NCBI RefSeq assembly: GCF_030848505.1
Contig: NZ_JAVDDU010000001.1
Location: 620,001-684,000 of the forward strand
DNA from: Marinimicrobium hydrolyticum
Lineage (GTDB): Bacteria > Pseudomonadota > Gammaproteobacteria > Pseudomonadales > Cellvibrionaceae
Direction: 5' to 3'
Length of the DNA: 64,000 bases
Positions within the stretch are counted from its first letter, which is position 1; each line of letters begins with the position of its first letter. The position numbers and the translations under genes are program-made. This document shows positions 13,887-43,090 of the stretch, piece by piece. Under the pieces are notes generated by a model, which saw only the letters and a list, made by a program, of their open reading frames with translations, did not search any database and was not told where the DNA came from.

Positions 13887-13981
13887 CGCCCCAAACTAAC
13901 CGAGTTCTTTGCCGTAAGCCGACCTCATAACAGGAGTTTTGGGGCGTAAGAATGCCTTAGCTGGGGCTGTAAAGGTGATTT

Positions 13982-14069
13982 GCAGGAGGCTTTTCGAAAC
14001 TCTCAAAAGAGGGATCTTTTGGGAGAGCCCCCAGGGACGGGTTTACGGCGTTTTCGAAAAGCCTCCTGC
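13982..14069. repeat. Palindromic repeat, type B
   Basis: A perfect 18-base inverted repeat, GCAGGAGGCTTTTCGAAA (13982-13999) with its reverse complement at 14052-14069, encloses a 52-base core. The core (CTCAAAAGAGGGATC near the left, CCCAGGGACGGGTTTACGG near the right) resembles the inner flanks of the type A elements although the ends are different. This is the shortest member seen. Confidence 0.85.
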
Positions 14070-14273
14070 GAAGCGCCTGGGATTACCTTACGAAGCCCAT
14101 CACCTGAACCTGCGTTTTTCGAGTCTCTGGCAGTAAACCTACTATCTGAGATCGCGCAAATTGTGGCGCTGCACTCCAAACAGCAGTGCGCGTACGCGGG
14201 AATGACGGAGTGGAGTTGGCAGTGTTTAGCCTAAATGGGTTAAACACGTCCAAGTCAATGTGGTAGGGAAGGT

Positions 14274-18020: not shown

Positions 18021-20957
18021 TCATAGTGCCCGAATATTCAGCCCCAGCTCCTGCGCGGTAGACTTGTGTCCACTGTGCGTCACCACAGCAATGCTGGCGT
18101 GTTCAGGTTTTAAATATTGGTCCGCCACCCGGCGCAAATCGTCCAAGGTGACTTCCAGTACCCGGTTGCGGAACATCTCTCGCTTTTCCCGAGTGCGGCC
18201 GAATAGCTCGGCCTGATACGTCTGCTTGGCTTCCCCAGCCGGGGAGGCGGGCTTATCGATACTGCTAATAACCCCCAATATGGCTTCTTCCACTGGCTGC
18301 CAGCCGTGGTCTTCCGAGTGCAGCCACTCCAGGGCGCCATCGAAATCATCCAGTGTCTCGGTCAGGCGTGGATCCCGGTAGGAGAAGAACCGGAAGGCCG
18401 CACTGTTGCCGTCCTGACTGGCGCCGCCGCCGTAAGCACCGCCCTGTTCGCGAATGGCCCGGTGCAAATAGCCATTGCGCAGGAATCCGCCCAGAACCGT
18501 TAGCGCAGCCGAATCCGGATGCTCGCCGGGTACGGTGGGGTAGGCTTTGGCGCAGAAATTTACCTGGGTGTTGGTAATCCACGCCTCGCGAACCTGCTCC
18601 GAGACCGGCTCCAGAGTGAAGGCCGAAAAGTCTTCCCCTTTCGGCGTTTCAGGCCAGTGAGCCAAGAGTTCGTCCCGATACCGATCCAACTGCTCCGGCT
18701 CACCCACCAGTAAAAACTGTTTGGGCGCTTGCAGAACCAAACGGTGAATAGCCTGCAGTTGCTGGGAAAACCGCGCTAATTGCTCGGCATCTTCCAAGCC
18801 CTGGTCAAGCTGTTTCAATTTGGCGATACCTGCCAAACCCCCAAGCTGATGACTCAGCTTGGCTGCCGGGGCCATGCCTGCGGTAGCAGCCGCCATGGCG
18901 AGGCTGTGACCGCTGCCCGTAATGGATTGTTCCCGGCGCGCGCGAGTTTGCGCTATCAGTTCACGTAGGCGCGGTAATTCGTCAAAGCGCACCTGCTCCA
19001 GGGTGGCCTTCATCAGTTCGGTCATGGCGTTGTGATTGCGCGCCAACGCTTTTGCAGACAGGGTCAAATAGGCATCAATGCGCTGCACGTCGTCCGTGGC
19101 TCCGCGCACGCTGCTGGAGGCACTGATGGCGCCTACGGCGCTCGCCTGCCAGCGTTGGGTTTCCAAGTAATCACGCTCGCCCACGCCCAGTTCCGTCAGG
19201 CAATGACAGTAGTAGGGCAGCAGGGCTTGTTGCTCTTCGCTGAGCGCCGGTAGCTTGCAGTTGAGTTGTTGGTACACCAGGCCGTTGGTCCCGGCGCTGT
19301 AGCGGCGGAGGGGATAGCTGTTGGAATCTTGCGGATCAAGCGTTTCCCGGCTGCCATCGACGTAAGCCATGGCGTGAGGAATATCTTCCAATCCCACTTT
19401 GGGCAGCAGGCTGTCATCAACCTTGGCGTTCTGACGCTCTTCCAGGGCGCGGGCGCGCTCTATGATTTCCTGGCGACGTTCATCACTCAAGCCGGTACGA
19501 ATGGCTTCCAGGCGCCGTTCTTCATCTTCCTGTGCGTGGCGCGTATAGGCTGTATCCGGGCGCAGAGTCAGGCGCAGACGGTGCGGGTTTTCGAGCAAAA
19601 GCGTGCGCACCAGGTTGGGAATGAAATCCGGCTGGTGAATTTTTTCCCGCAAGCGGGTCAGGGCGGTTTCTTGGTCCAGCAGTGCAATGGGGTCACCGCG
19701 GTGGGTGGCTGCGCCCAGGCCAGTCATAATCAGGTGCAGGCCATAGGGCATGCCGTCGCCGGTGACTTCCCGTTGTTCCAGCTCCAGTTGGTGCAGTGCA
19801 GATTCCACCAGTTCCTGGGGAACGCCTTCTTCGGCTACTTTGCGCAGCGTGTCCAGAATCAGTTGTTCCACTTGCGGTACTTGTTCCAGGGCGCAGCCTT
19901 CCAGACCACAAGCGAAGGCCATTTCGTAATGAGAGTCGTCTAGGCCACACAGGGGTGATGGAGCCTGGCCCAATTCTGTCGTTTCCAGCGCCTGCAGCAG
20001 AGGCGAGGCGCTGTTGTCCAGCAAAATGGCTGTGAGCAGTTCAGCTTCCAGCGCTTCCTGAAGGTTGGTACTTTTACCCAGCAGCCAGCTCATCACCACA
20101 TGGGTTTTGCGCGCCGGGTCTTCACCTTCCTCAAGCGGATAAGCTTGCTCAACGGCAATGGGCGCGTGATAGCGTTTCTCTTCACCCACAGCAGTAACTG
20201 TATCCAGTGGTTCAAAGCGGCTTAGCACGCGCGCTTCGAATACCGCTTGATGGTCTGCGGCCGAAATGTCGCCGTAAGTCATAAAAATGGCGTTACTGGG
20301 ATGGTAGTGGGTCCGATAAAAGGCTTTTAGCTGTTCGTACGTGAGATCTGGAATGTGCTCAGGATCGCCACCGCTATTGTGATGATAGGTGGTGCTTGGG
20401 TAGAGGTGGCGGCTCAGCGCCTGCCAGAGTTGGGCGGGCACAGAACTCATGGCGCCTTTCATTTCGTTGTACACCACGCCCTTGTGCACCAGTTTGGAGT
20501 CGGGGTTGTCGGGCTCGGCGAATTCCAGGCGGTGACCTTCCTGAGCAAAATCCAGTTCATCCAGATTGGAGAAAAACACCGCGTCCAAATAGACATCCAA
20601 CAGGTTGTCGAAGTCTTTGCGGTTTTGGCTGGCAAAAGGGTAGGCGGTCCAGTCAGAGCTGGTGAAGGCGTTCATAAACGTATTGAGCGAGCGGCGAATC
20701 ATCATAAAGAAGGGATCGCGCACCGGGTATTTTTCACTCCCACACAGCGCCGTATGTTCCAACACATGAGCCACGCCCGTAGAGTCGTGGGGCACGGTTC
20801 GCAATGCGACGAGAAAAACGTTCTCCGGATTATCGGCGGCCAGGTGAATGTGTTGCGCGCCGGTTTTTTTGTGGCGATATTCTTCCACGCGCAGTTTTAG
20901 CGCCTCGATGGTTTGGCTGCGCAGGTGTTCAAAAGCTGGGTGGGTATCCGGAGTCAT
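18021..20957 (-). CDS. M16C-family zinc metallopeptidase (presequence-protease/insulinase-like)
   Basis: A 978-residue peptidase of the M16C (PreP/Cym1-like) type: the inverted zinc motif H64-V-L-E67-H68 near the N terminus, followed by the conserved region CGSEKYPVRDPFF and a long four-domain chain ending in a PreP-type C terminus. These enzymes degrade short unstructured peptides inside a closed chamber. There is no signal peptide, so it is probably cytoplasmic. Its ATG overlaps the stop of the GIY-YIG/DTW gene by one base (TAATG). Length is normal for the family. Confidence 0.92.
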   Translation of the reverse strand: MTPDTHPAFEHLRSQTIEALKLRVEEYRHKKTGAQHIHLAADNPENVFLVALRTVPHDSTGVAHVLEHTALCGSEKYPVRDPFFMMIRRSLNTFMNAFTSSDWTAYPFASQNRKDFDNLLDVYLDAVFFSNLDELDFAQEGHRLEFAEPDNPDSKLVHKGVVYNEMKGAMSSVPAQLWQALSRHLYPSTTYHHNSGGDPEHIPDLTYEQLKAFYRTHYHPSNAIFMTYGDISAADHQAVFEARVLSRFEPLDTVTAVGEEKRYHAPIAVEQAYPLEEGEDPARKTHVVMSWLLGKSTNLQEALEAELLTAILLDNSASPLLQALETTELGQAPSPLCGLDDSHYEMAFACGLEGCALEQVPQVEQLILDTLRKVAEEGVPQELVESALHQLELEQREVTGDGMPYGLHLIMTGLGAATHRGDPIALLDQETALTRLREKIHQPDFIPNLVRTLLLENPHRLRLTLRPDTAYTRHAQEDEERRLEAIRTGLSDERRQEIIERARALEERQNAKVDDSLLPKVGLEDIPHAMAYVDGSRETLDPQDSNSYPLRRYSAGTNGLVYQQLNCKLPALSEEQQALLPYYCHCLTELGVGERDYLETQRWQASAVGAISASSSVRGATDDVQRIDAYLTLSAKALARNHNAMTELMKATLEQVRFDELPRLRELIAQTRARREQSITGSGHSLAMAAATAGMAPAAKLSHQLGGLAGIAKLKQLDQGLEDAEQLARFSQQLQAIHRLVLQAPKQFLLVGEPEQLDRYRDELLAHWPETPKGEDFSAFTLEPVSEQVREAWITNTQVNFCAKAYPTVPGEHPDSAALTVLGGFLRNGYLHRAIREQGGAYGGGASQDGNSAAFRFFSYRDPRLTETLDDFDGALEWLHSEDHGWQPVEEAILGVISSIDKPASPAGEAKQTYQAELFGRTREKREMFRNRVLEVTLDDLRRVADQYLKPEHASIAVVTHSGHKSTAQELGLNIRAL

Positions 20958-22051
20958 TAGTTCTCTCTGCTTGATTGGTCGATGCGCTGTTTGGTGGCGT
21001 TCAGCGCCGCATGTTGGTCAATAAAGTCGTCAAAGGCCGCCAGTATTGGGCGGTAGGTGTTCTGGTCATTTTCCAATAGCGTTAAAGCGTAACAACTTGC
21101 TTCCAGTGTGGAAAGGTGGCCGGGCTTTGGAGCCCTTCGAATGCGGTAATTTGATGGCGCCGAGTTCGTTAATGCCATGCGGGGCAGTTGTTGTAGCGCT
21201 GGATTAAGGTAGAGCATCTTCTGGCTTTTGCGCCAGGTTCCGTCCAGCACGATCAGGCGCAGGTGTTCGGGCTCCAGGTCTTTCCAATCAACGTGAGGAG
21301 GCTCCGGTAGCGCCGGATCGGTGTTGCTCGGGTAGAGCAGCAGATTGGTTTTGTCGCCCGACAGGATTTGATTGAGTAGTTCGGTAGAAAACACTTCGCC
21401 CACATGGAGTTCGCTGTTGCTCAAGCTCAGGTGCAACAGACCGGCGGTATTTTTGGCTGTACCCGCTTCTTTTGGATGCTGCAGAATAATGACTTGCACA
21501 CGGTTGTCCTGCCGATTGATCCAGGAGCAAATGCATCTGACTTTGGGTACGGCGCAATCAGGGCAAATTGGACGTGTGCGTGAGATTGTTCGGTTGGTGG
21601 GAGAGGAAAGGGTGCCCGGTGTTTCGAGACACGCAGAATAACGGCCCCTACGCGCTCCCGGCGCTTCGGGACACTCCTCGCTTCCCTGCGAGTCGTCCAT
21701 GTACGCTCCGCGTCGGCTTCCTGCCTCCGAGGGTCTCGAAACACCGGGCACCCTTTCCTGGTCCTTGGGCAGTACATCTTCAAGGGCTGGAGAAACAGTT
21801 GTTTCGATTAGCTGTTCTTTGGAGCGCCGGTTTAGTTGTTTGATGGCTATTTCCCGTCGGGTGGCGCTGCTGCGGTCCGGGTGTTGTTCGAGTAAACACA
21901 GCTCTTTGGGCGTGCGACCGCGAAAATAGCGCGCGCCGGCAGGACCCTTGGTGTGCTCCTGCCAACGGCGTTTTATATCTGTGGTAATGCCAGTGTACAG
22001 CTGATCATCGTCGGTGCGAATGATGTACACAAACCAAGTGGGGGCAGTCAT
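20957..22051 (-). CDS. GIY-YIG nuclease-like domain fused to a DTW-domain (tRNA aminocarboxypropyltransferase-like) protein
   Basis: A 364-residue fusion. Residues 1-90 match the small UPF0213/YhbQ-type GIY-YIG proteins (WFVYIIRTDDDQLYTGIT, RR at 28-29, RREIAIKQL). Residues 158-350 match the DTW family, whose members add aminocarboxypropyl to tRNA uridine: zinc-ribbon-like C163-x2-C166-x6-C173-x-C175 and the VLDGTWRKSQKML motif (268-280). The linker, residues 98-149, is encoded by a palindromic repeat element and has odd composition (EECPEAPGARRG). No start codon lies between the element and the DTW domain, so DTW can only be made as the fusion or from an ATG inside the repeat (21700). Its stop overlaps the peptidase start. 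Confidence 0.85.
   Translation of the reverse strand: MTAPTWFVYIIRTDDDQLYTGITTDIKRRWQEHTKGPAGARYFRGRTPKELCLLEQHPDRSSATRREIAIKQLNRRSKEQLIETTVSPALEDVLPKDQERVPGVSRPSEAGSRRGAYMDDSQGSEECPEAPGARRGRYSACLETPGTLSSPTNRTISRTRPICPDCAVPKVRCICSWINRQDNRVQVIILQHPKEAGTAKNTAGLLHLSLSNSELHVGEVFSTELLNQILSGDKTNLLLYPSNTDPALPEPPHVDWKDLEPEHLRLIVLDGTWRKSQKMLYLNPALQQLPRMALTNSAPSNYRIRRAPKPGHLSTLEASCYALTLLENDQNTYRPILAAFDDFIDQHAALNATKQRIDQSSREN
21605..21758. repeat. Palindromic repeat, type C, inside the GIY-YIG/DTW gene
   Basis: A perfect 26-base inverted repeat (21605-21630 and 21733-21758; key part GGGTGCCCGGTGTTTCGAG) bounds a 154-bp element. Its core, 21650-21700, matches the reverse complement of 42813-42863 in the hybrid repeat at about 47 of 51 positions by eye. 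The whole element is open in the reading frame of the host gene and supplies about 51 linker codons. Confidence 0.9.
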
Positions 22052-22276: not shown

Positions 22277-24016
22277 TCAATGCGCCCGATGGCGATACAA
22301 GGGGGGCAGATCGCCGGTTTCCCGTTGCTGTTTGCGTCGGCGTACACGAAGTGCATCCACTTCTTGAAGCAGCGTTTCGCGGCCCAGCTCTGGGCTCTCC
22401 CGATCACTGAACAGGCTGCGGTCCAGAGCCTGAAGTTGTTGTTGCAAGCCCGGCCGTTCGCTTCGTTGCGCAATGGCGGTGAGGCTGTGAATGGGTTCGT
22501 CCGGCCAGTGGCTGCGTGCCCAGTTCAGGAGTGCGTCGCGCACCTGTGACAAACTGCCGTCTCGAGTTTGGCGCTTGAGATTGGCCCACGCGGTTTTTTC
22601 TCGCGTGCGGTCCTGGCGCTGATTTTGAGTATGGCCCTCCACCAAGCTGTTCAGCTGTTGGCGTAGACGGAAGTAGCTGGCACTCAGGAACAATAGCAAT
22701 AAAAGCAAAAGGGCACTGCTGACGATAAGCCACCAATGCAGAGTGGTGAAACCGGGCTCAGCGCGCGGCGAGATCGGCAGCTCGGTCGTGATGGGTGTTG
22801 GGTCCTGCGCAGCCTGGGGTGAACTGCCGGGGGGAGGCGCGAGGCCCGCAGGTGGGGTTACGCGCACTTGCCGCGCGGGCAAGGTTGCGTTACGCATTTC
22901 CCCAGCTTGAGTATCCCACCACGCGAGATTGACTTCCGGCAGCGTCAGGCGACCGGTTTGGTTGGGTACCAGCGCTAAGGTTTGGGTCACGGTGCTTTTG
23001 ACGCCCTCGGAGGTGACTTGCTCGTCCGTTTGCGGTTGATCGGGGTAGAGGTTAACGCCGGCAACTTCGCCCACCGGAATAGCGGGCAATTGCGCAGCCG
23101 TAAGCCCCTGAGCGGTCAGGGTAATGCGTCGGGTGACCGGTTCGCCCTGGATCAGATTGTCCGGGTCTGAGCTCCAGTGTTCACTTAAGCGGATGTCGTC
23201 CGCCGGTAGCCAAATGTCTCCGGTAAAATCGCTGGCGGTGGGTTGGACGGGAACGCGTACTTCGTCCGTGCGCAGGCGCTGGCGCTCTCTGCCTCCGTAG
23301 ACTCGGCTCCAGGGGTCCTGGCGGGCGCGGCTGGGGGCGACATCGTACACCAGGGGAGGGATGACCAGTTCGCCGCTGCGCTGGGGAAACACCGCGAATG
23401 TGGTTTCCAGTACCAAGTGGTCGCGGTTGTCGATTTCGGTGATGTAACTGTTCTCGTCCACCGCCTTCATAACCGCGTCTTGTAAATCCAGCGGCTGCAT
23501 TTCGGCGCCATCAAGGTTAACGCGGCTGAACAGCCTGACAGTAAACAGCAGCTGCTCCTGAACGAAGACGCTGTCTTTGTTTACTTCAGTTTCTACAAAA
23601 ATATCCTGGCCGCGGCTTCCCGGCCGGGCGCGGGTTTCGCTGACTTCAATCGTGATCGGTTGACTGCGTACGCCCTCGACTTCCAGTGCCGGTATGGTCA
23701 AGGTTCCGGTCTGGCGAGGCACCAGGCGCAGGGTCCATTCAAGCCAAGCTTCCTGGCGTCCGTTGATGATGGTGAGGCGGCGTTGGCTCTGGTTACTGAT
23801 AATGTCGAAATCGCGTCTGAGCTCGTTTAGATCTGGAGTCGAGCCGGAGTGCGCTCCATCCAGCCGAAGCGTGAGGGTGATTCTGTCATCGATACTGACT
23901 TTGGTGCGGTCCACTGAGGCGGTCAGCTCGTTGGCCATAGCGTGACTTGCCAGCAAAATGCTCAGCAGGAGCAACGCAACCAAGGCTTTCCAGGTCTGTA
24001 ACAGCTTCACGGTCAT
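22277..24016 (-). CDS. batD: BatD-family membrane protein
   Basis: Last gene of the moxR/bat operon. The 579-residue protein has a signal peptide or anchor (about 10-28, ending SHAMA-NE), a long periplasmic beta-rich region with the BatD pattern (VSIDDRITLTLRLDG, GTLTIPALEVEG repeats, VFVQEQLLFTVRLF), a proline-rich joint near 395-420, and a second membrane helix at about 427-445 followed by a cytoplasmic helical tail. BatD acts with BatA/B in Bacteroides-type aerotolerance operons; the biochemical role is unsettled. It starts 38 bases after batBC. Confidence 0.9.
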   Translation of the reverse strand: MTVKLLQTWKALVALLLLSILLASHAMANELTASVDRTKVSIDDRITLTLRLDGAHSGSTPDLNELRRDFDIISNQSQRRLTIINGRQEAWLEWTLRLVPRQTGTLTIPALEVEGVRSQPITIEVSETRARPGSRGQDIFVETEVNKDSVFVQEQLLFTVRLFSRVNLDGAEMQPLDLQDAVMKAVDENSYITEIDNRDHLVLETTFAVFPQRSGELVIPPLVYDVAPSRARQDPWSRVYGGRERQRLRTDEVRVPVQPTASDFTGDIWLPADDIRLSEHWSSDPDNLIQGEPVTRRITLTAQGLTAAQLPAIPVGEVAGVNLYPDQPQTDEQVTSEGVKSTVTQTLALVPNQTGRLTLPEVNLAWWDTQAGEMRNATLPARQVRVTPPAGLAPPPGSSPQAAQDPTPITTELPISPRAEPGFTTLHWWLIVSSALLLLLLLFLSASYFRLRQQLNSLVEGHTQNQRQDRTREKTAWANLKRQTRDGSLSQVRDALLNWARSHWPDEPIHSLTAIAQRSERPGLQQQLQALDRSLFSDRESPELGRETLLQEVDALRVRRRKQQRETGDLPPLYRHRAH

Positions 24017-42547: not shown

Positions 42548-42670
42548 TTCGTAAGCGAGCCCTGGCCGCGCAGGGTGAGTGTTCAGCAAACGTCGTAAAC
42601 CCCTCCCTGGGGACTGCCTCAAAAGGTCCCTCTTTTGAGGCTTGCTGAACACTCACCCTGCACGCCCCCA
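42548..42670. repeat. Palindromic repeat, type A, copy 3 (internally deleted)
   Basis: Same 20-base ends as the longer copies (42570-42589 and 42642-42661) and the same outer flank with CTTCGTAAGC, but about 80 bases of the middle part are missing. The core reads CCTGGGGACTGCCTC, then directly AAAAGGTCCCTCTTTTGAGG. It has the same orientation as copy 2. Confidence 0.87.
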
Positions 42671-42747: not shown

Positions 42748-42929
42748 CAGAAGGCTTTTCGAAACTGTCAGAAGAGAGACCTTTCGGCCGGCGCTCCGGT
42801 GAGGCAGTCCCTATGGACGACTCACAGGGAAGTGATGAGTGTCCCGAAGCGCCGGGAGCGCGGAGGGACTGGGTTCACGACGTTTGCTGAACACTCACCC
42901 TGCGCGGCCCGGGAGCTTGCTTACGAAGC
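42748..42929. repeat. Hybrid palindromic repeat: type B left end, type C core, type A right end
   Basis: The left end (GCAGAAGGCTTTTCGAAACT, 42748-42767) matches type B, the core (42813-42863) matches the element inside the GIY-YIG/DTW gene, and the right end (reverse complement of the type A terminal sequence, 42884-42903) plus the flank GCTTGCTTACGAAGC match type A. Because left and right ends differ, this copy lacks long terminal inverted repeats. Confidence 0.85.
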
Positions 42930-43090
42930 GGTAGTACGCCTTAGCGGGAATGACGATGACTAATGACTTTCGGTAAAGTAAAGGCTACCCTGAGTTTTGA
43001 GATTCCCGGAAATAGTGAGCCGACGAGGCGCCTACAAGAGAGTCTCTAAATGCAGAAGGTCCTCTCCCGTTAATTTAACCGTGAACTGCC

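Follow-up and report, generated by a model that had tools for sequence, protein, structure and literature searches.

How did a nuclease domain and a putative tRNA-modifying domain come to be joined in Marinimicrobium hydrolyticum by a linker that is itself a palindromic repeat? The window analysed here is a stretch of 64,000 nucleotides (contig NZ_JAVDDU010000001.1, positions 620,001 to 684,000), and it contains a reading frame in which a GIY-YIG domain is followed by such a linker and by a DTW domain (Table 1). Most gene fusions come to notice when their origin lies far in the past. In this one, the DNA at the join can still be identified as a dispersed repeat and the sister lineage keeps the unfused, overlapping gene pair, and the transition from such a pair to a single covalent protein becomes directly testable.

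The fused reading frame and its linker

Both halves of the 364-residue frame are recognised by Pfam. The GIY-YIG part scores 58.6 bits (cut-off 22.6), as a nuclease domain, and the DTW part 168.5 bits (cut-off 33.7), as the domain of tRNA acp3U transferases of the TapT type; the latter retains the DGTW motif. The fusion provides the single DTW match in its genome, and there are two further GIY-YIG matches, within open frames of 137 and 629 residues. NCBIfam gave no matches for the fusion or for the separate parts of G001, the sole other genome of the genus that was compared. The sequence TAATG at window positions 20955-20959 contains the stop codon of the fusion, overlapping the start of the protease gene.

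The initial annotation had described a 154-bp element with perfect 26-bp terminal inverted repeats, lying in frame between the two domains, and this description holds. The arms pair along their entire length, and the inverted repeat extends to 27 bases once the flanking A/T is counted. The element encodes residues 98-149 of the fusion, and the unusual composition ascribed to this linker is real, with G, P, S, R and E together accounting for 62% of the element peptide, compared with 33% and 30% for the parts that hold the domains. It had also been noted correctly that no start codon lies between the element and the DTW domain: the in-frame ATG, GTG or TTG codons between GIY-YIG and DTW amount to one GTG and one ATG, both within the element. 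As single-stranded RNA, the minus strand of the element is predicted to fold with -96.4 kcal/mol (z = -9.0, 200 shuffles); Rfam, at its gathering scores, gave no matches across the window.

Table 1. Positions, in window coordinates, of the fused frame, its neighbours and the repeat.
Feature	Position	Strand	Remark
M16 (PreP-type) protease gene	18021..20957	-	start overlaps fusion stop
GIY-YIG + repeat-encoded linker + DTW fusion ORF, 364 aa	20957..22051	-	open throughout
DTW domain, residues 160-346	21014..21574	-	Pfam, 2e-49
ATC replacing conserved DTW start (relatives MSR..., here ISR...)	21584..21586	-	gene position 466
Palindromic element, 154 bp, C type (A-type ends + B-type core)	21605..21758		six full-length copies in genome
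Terminal inverted repeat arm 1, 26 bp	21605..21630	+	26/26 complementary
Core common to B-type repeats, 56 bp	21646..21701	+	element BLAST query 52-107
In-frame ATG (Met118), candidate internal DTW start	21698..21700	-	GGAG five bases upstream
Terminal inverted repeat arm 2, 26 bp	21733..21758	-	pairs with arm 1
GIY-YIG nuclease domain, residues 6-78	21818..22036	-	Pfam PF01541, 7.7e-16
BatD-domain gene, upstream of fusion	22277..24016	-	same neighbour in G001, G021, G080, G064
B-type intergenic repeat core	42813..42867	-	related to element over core alone

A dispersed palindromic repeat

In the draft genome of M. hydrolyticum (4.0 Mb, 30 contigs), the element gives 54 BLAST matches, a number that includes single-copy pieces and the element's own arms. 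Six places, among them the fusion copy, match over the full length (86-100%). This dispersal is far beyond chance. Short, bounded by terminal inverted repeats and present in dozens of copies (154 bp for the C type, ~103 bp for the A type), the repeat resembles a MITE; no target-site duplication was seen by eye in the sequence flanking 6 copies of type C and 22 of type A. Two 14-base words from the repeat core had no occurrences in the literature searched.

Two families, A and B, can be told apart. Members of family A are about 103 bp long, with ends and right half as in the element; 18 of the 19 copies measured have exactly 103 bp (3n+1) between fixed anchors, and more distant members range from 95 to 105 bp. 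Family B repeats, roughly 200 bp by eye, have different ends and share a 56-bp core with the element. The six full-length copies (C, 153-156 bp) have the ends of A around the core of B. The five others besides the window copy measure 155, 156, 156, 155 and 153 bp, and of all six the window copy has the least spacer sequence following its left arm. Related sequence had been reported in an intergenic repeat at 42748-42929; a 55-bp core within it (C1:662813-662867) indeed matches the element at 93%, but its ends belong to another repeat family. In the ~103-bp A copies (e.g. L009:1502-1604, L069:1461-1563, L064:1461-1563) the 26-bp arms vary from copy to copy, and within each copy they are complementary to each other.

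Beyond this genome, BLAST of 120 genomes of the family found related sequence in 28 genomes from 12 of 32 genera, the genome of M. hydrolyticum included. A covariance model of the A type matched in 20 of 38 genomes, again including this one, with up to 100 matches per genome among the at most 105 candidates scored in each; palindromes may match on both strands, and these are therefore not copy counts. Within the window, the model matches weakly at 42565-42666, which is part of a palindromic cluster upstream of 42748, at 13975-14076 and at 42978-43067 (E 7e-6 to 2e-4). A-like elements also occur two by two and oppositely oriented, with starts 216-222 bp apart (L178:1148-1470, L186:1102-1419, L187:1145-1465), and may represent a composite unit; several other genomes have a similar inner core with quite different arms.

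Covariation of the arms was assessed in 18 A copies, 16 from this genome and 2 from G001. The C copies were left out of the alignment, and L083 (arm indel), L070b and the G001 copies L066 and L067 (damaged arms) were dropped. In these copies 97.2% of the arm cells pair, and 19 of the 26 arm pairs have changed on both sides (51 cells), with 4 G-U cells only. None of 500 shuffles reached the scores of the A arms on any of five measures, and slid controls scored far lower. The arms thus vary between copies yet pair in each, and the scarcity of G-U suggests matching at the level of DNA, with template switching or hairpin-dependent movement, rather than slow selection on RNA, as its putative source.

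The draft state of the assembly, with a junction that lies in a repeat with other copies, raises the question of whether an assembly or base-count error makes separate genes appear fused. We consider such an error very improbable, since the arms and spacer of the window copy are distinct from those of the other five full-length copies, so that it was not simply collapsed with them, and since the loss of the DTW start, described below, fits a real fused frame.

A search of the genome for other in-frame copies, as the initial annotation had recommended, covered 57 copies (42 with an ORF threshold of at least 90 residues and 15 with one of at least 100). Fourteen of these, the window copy included, lie wholly inside an ORF, and all 14 ORFs were scanned with Pfam. 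Of the 13 besides the window copy, none has recognised domains on both sides. Besides the fusion, a single repeat-containing ORF has a Pfam domain (L077, phosphoglucomutase); the repeat precedes the whole of this domain, which is what an over-long start call would produce. Genes resembling nadK and phoR partly overlap copies, with the repeat at or before the start (some of the partial overlaps were scanned).

The gene pair in relatives and a proposed route to fusion

Alignment with orthologues had been suggested as a check, and its outcome is uniform. GIY-YIG and DTW are separate genes in all 42 relatives read in which both occur on the same strand of one locus, a count confined to linked pairs. 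The loci came from searches of 58 and 120 genomes, of which a subset was read. With the start codon of each relative chosen by script as the one nearest to the homologous position, 20 junctions are four-base NTGA overlaps, 12 are other overlaps, 7 are gaps of <30 nt and 3 are larger gaps. In the NTGA arrangement, the DTW start lies over the GIY-YIG stop, and the DTW frame is -1 relative to that of GIY-YIG.

The nearest relatives have this arrangement. In G001, the two genes are separate and meet at ATGA, and a tree of DTW sequences places M. hydrolyticum beside G001 (100/98); the two group, with weaker support (89/64), with G021, G080 and G064, each of which has a four-base overlap. The neighbourhood is also conserved: the M16 protease gene adjoins the pair at every locus except that of G010 (41 of 42), and batD does so in the four closest relatives, the upstream reach being short elsewhere. 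The exact empty site was not seen, because G001, the same-genus comparison, is only 62% identical in DTW. The proposal that the repeat entered an existing fusion finds no support, with no repeat-free fusion among the 42 relatives. Strong support for the other proposal, creation of the fusion by the repeat, comes from the separate genes in the same neighbourhood; the removal of stop and start that it invoked is not required, because 3n+1 bases upstream of NTGA align the two frames, and the ATGA has been lost as well.

Three long ORFs (in G012, G123 and G020) were considered as further GIY-YIG/DTW fusions and rejected, as each genome keeps its own GIY-YIG stop, which in G020 sits in an NTGA overlap. 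The DTW gene of G020 (L039 / L135) carries a different palindromic cluster, of the TGTCGGATTACG...CTAATCCGACCTAC type, inserted in frame between two matched parts of the DTW domain, and its ORF of 269 residues stays open.

The fused domains diverge about as much as the separate genes of the sister lineage. Distances of the DTW part to G021, G080 and G064 are 96/200, 94/197 and 85/186 for the fusion, and 94/194, 96/196 and 87/191 for G001; the corresponding GIY-YIG values are 30/92, 33/91 and 33/91 for the fusion, and 32/89, 30/88 and 31/88 for G001. To the outgroup G020, the fusion is slightly farther than G001 (GIY-YIG 29/83 vs 23/83, DTW part 38/89 vs 34/89). Such similar distances suggest that the fusion is probably functional, and they fit purifying selection on both halves. 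That the fusion is instead a decaying gene pair, tolerated by the cell, strikes us as most unlikely: the pair is not universal, with the genes unlinked in some relatives (e.g. G023, G029) or one only listed, and inserted DNA of mobile type forms the junction, but all 364 codons are open, both domains score well above their cut-offs, the DGTW motif is kept, and there is no clear excess of substitutions compared with the sister.

At the junction itself, the former ATGA now reads ATCT, and with it both the DTW start and the GIY-YIG stop are lost. When the flanks of the element are joined by script, the GIY-YIG frame runs through PKDHLPPTEQ to a TCT at the position of the stop, and the DTW frame gives ...TISRTRP, with ISR in place of the MSR of relatives. 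The element has 3x51+1 bases and is open in the required frame. As the DTW frame is -1 relative to GIY-YIG at NTGA, a stop-free insert of 3n+1 bases upstream is read past the stop into DTW. Given that the ORF is open, the frame fit is partly a tautology; independent evidence comes from the element's length, which would fit by chance in one case out of three, and from the loss of the start. Open frames are common in the repeat (17 of 36 in the six C copies and 67 of 102 in 17 A copies, with six frames per copy), and a fusing insertion is therefore no rare accident once the repeat lands at such a place.

We propose, with a probability of about 0.8, that insertion of the repeat upstream of the ATGA overlap joined the GIY-YIG and DTW genes into one protein. 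In the ancestor, the TGA stop of a small GIY-YIG nuclease gene would have overlapped the ATG start of DTW. A stop-free, hairpin-forming, dispersed repeat would then have entered the variable tail of GIY-YIG, 18 bases before the overlap. With a net gain of 3n+1 bases (154; the flanks showed no target duplication from which the inserted length could be fixed), ribosomes coming from GIY-YIG would be shifted into the frame of DTW, pass the TGA unread and go on through the second gene, yielding one protein with a repeat-encoded linker. The change of ATGA to ATCT would have made DTW dependent on the repeat, most likely by read-through.

Since the old start is gone, DTW can be translated only through the repeat or from a start within it. 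The annotation had already raised separate production of DTW from the ATG at 21700; in this reading the long ORF would be incidental or give a minor product. This ATG is in the DTW frame, has GGAG five bases upstream (Table 1) and became the nearest upstream in-frame start after the loss of the old one. We nevertheless consider it unlikely, as ribosomes from GIY-YIG find no stop before the end of DTW and the ATG is buried in a very stable predicted hairpin; fused and separate DTW products could coexist.

Insertion may have joined the genes in a single step, with the insert shifting ribosomes past the stop, the old start decaying and the repeat becoming indispensable in an obligatory two-enzyme protein; we give this route an even chance. 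Given the lengths of the other C copies, the 3n+1 length may be luck, or a later indel may have set the frame. In a two-step route, which we hold to be possible and put forward tentatively, the repeat first lay out of frame and a small deletion in the variable spacer later fused the frames. The lengths of the five other full copies and the short left-arm spacer of the window copy speak for it. However, it requires an extra event while GIY-YIG read-through is broken, even if DTW need not have suffered meanwhile, with its own ATG still present, and the prevalence of 103 bp, also 3n+1, among the A copies indicates that many members of the wider family have a fitting length, although more distant ones span 95-105 bp.

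If insertion of the repeat did join the genes in a single step, it would represent a repeatable route from operon to fusion protein, with a repeat that is often 3n+1 long and open in about two thirds of its A frames. The lost start codon would mark the point of no return. Other genomes can be searched by this rule, in which a stop-free insert of 3n+1 bases precedes NTGA.

Comparison with known systems

DTW proteins of the YfiP/TapT kind are described as forming acp3U in tRNA (PMC6895100, PMC7026641, as far as the available text goes). The fusion has its DTW domain in common with these tRNA-uridine aminocarboxypropyltransferases, but differs in that DTW is joined to a GIY-YIG domain; no paper pairing 'DTW domain' with 'GIY-YIG' was found in the literature searched. 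The element resembles the REP palindromes linked to RAYT, which are likewise dispersed extragenic palindromes. A REP/RAYT origin was rejected, as PF01797 (Y1_Tnp) has no match in the genome of M. hydrolyticum, and control matches were obtained in 5 of 14 genomes.

In-frame palindromes and ORF fusions made by repeats are known. No case of a repeat joining two intact, separately conserved enzyme genes over a stop-start overlap came up in the searches made, in a literature mostly without subscription papers. ERIC/IRU, YPAL/RU-2, RU-3 and the Correia 107-bp elements are, like the element, small hairpin repeats with open frames, and fuse in frame to ORFs; fusions with domain-bearing sequences are also mentioned (PMC2229807, available portion). 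The examples given there concern extended, new or hypothetical ORFs, such as part of an acetyltransferase plus RU-3, and that portion tells of no bypass of a stop-start overlap between intact enzyme genes. Bacterial MITEs are said to be able to create gene fusions (PMC4853749, citing a review), and the accessible part of the same source describes a MITE within hupL, close to where hupS and hupL may be fused. In that case the MITE is said to lie downstream of the disruption or fusion and the genes are regarded as incomplete, whereas here the repeat is itself the join and both domains are whole.

By description, the element is also similar to the RPE of Rickettsia, known palindromic insertions in frame within bacterial genes (PMC2229807, PMC10969869, in the parts available). 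Both repeats are about 150 bp long, palindromic and dispersed, and occur in frame within genes. Among the 57 copies examined here, the window copy alone lies in frame in conserved coding genes with their domains preserved. RPEs are described in these parts as inserted into genes, whereas the element of the fusion occupies the boundary between two genes and links their enzymes.
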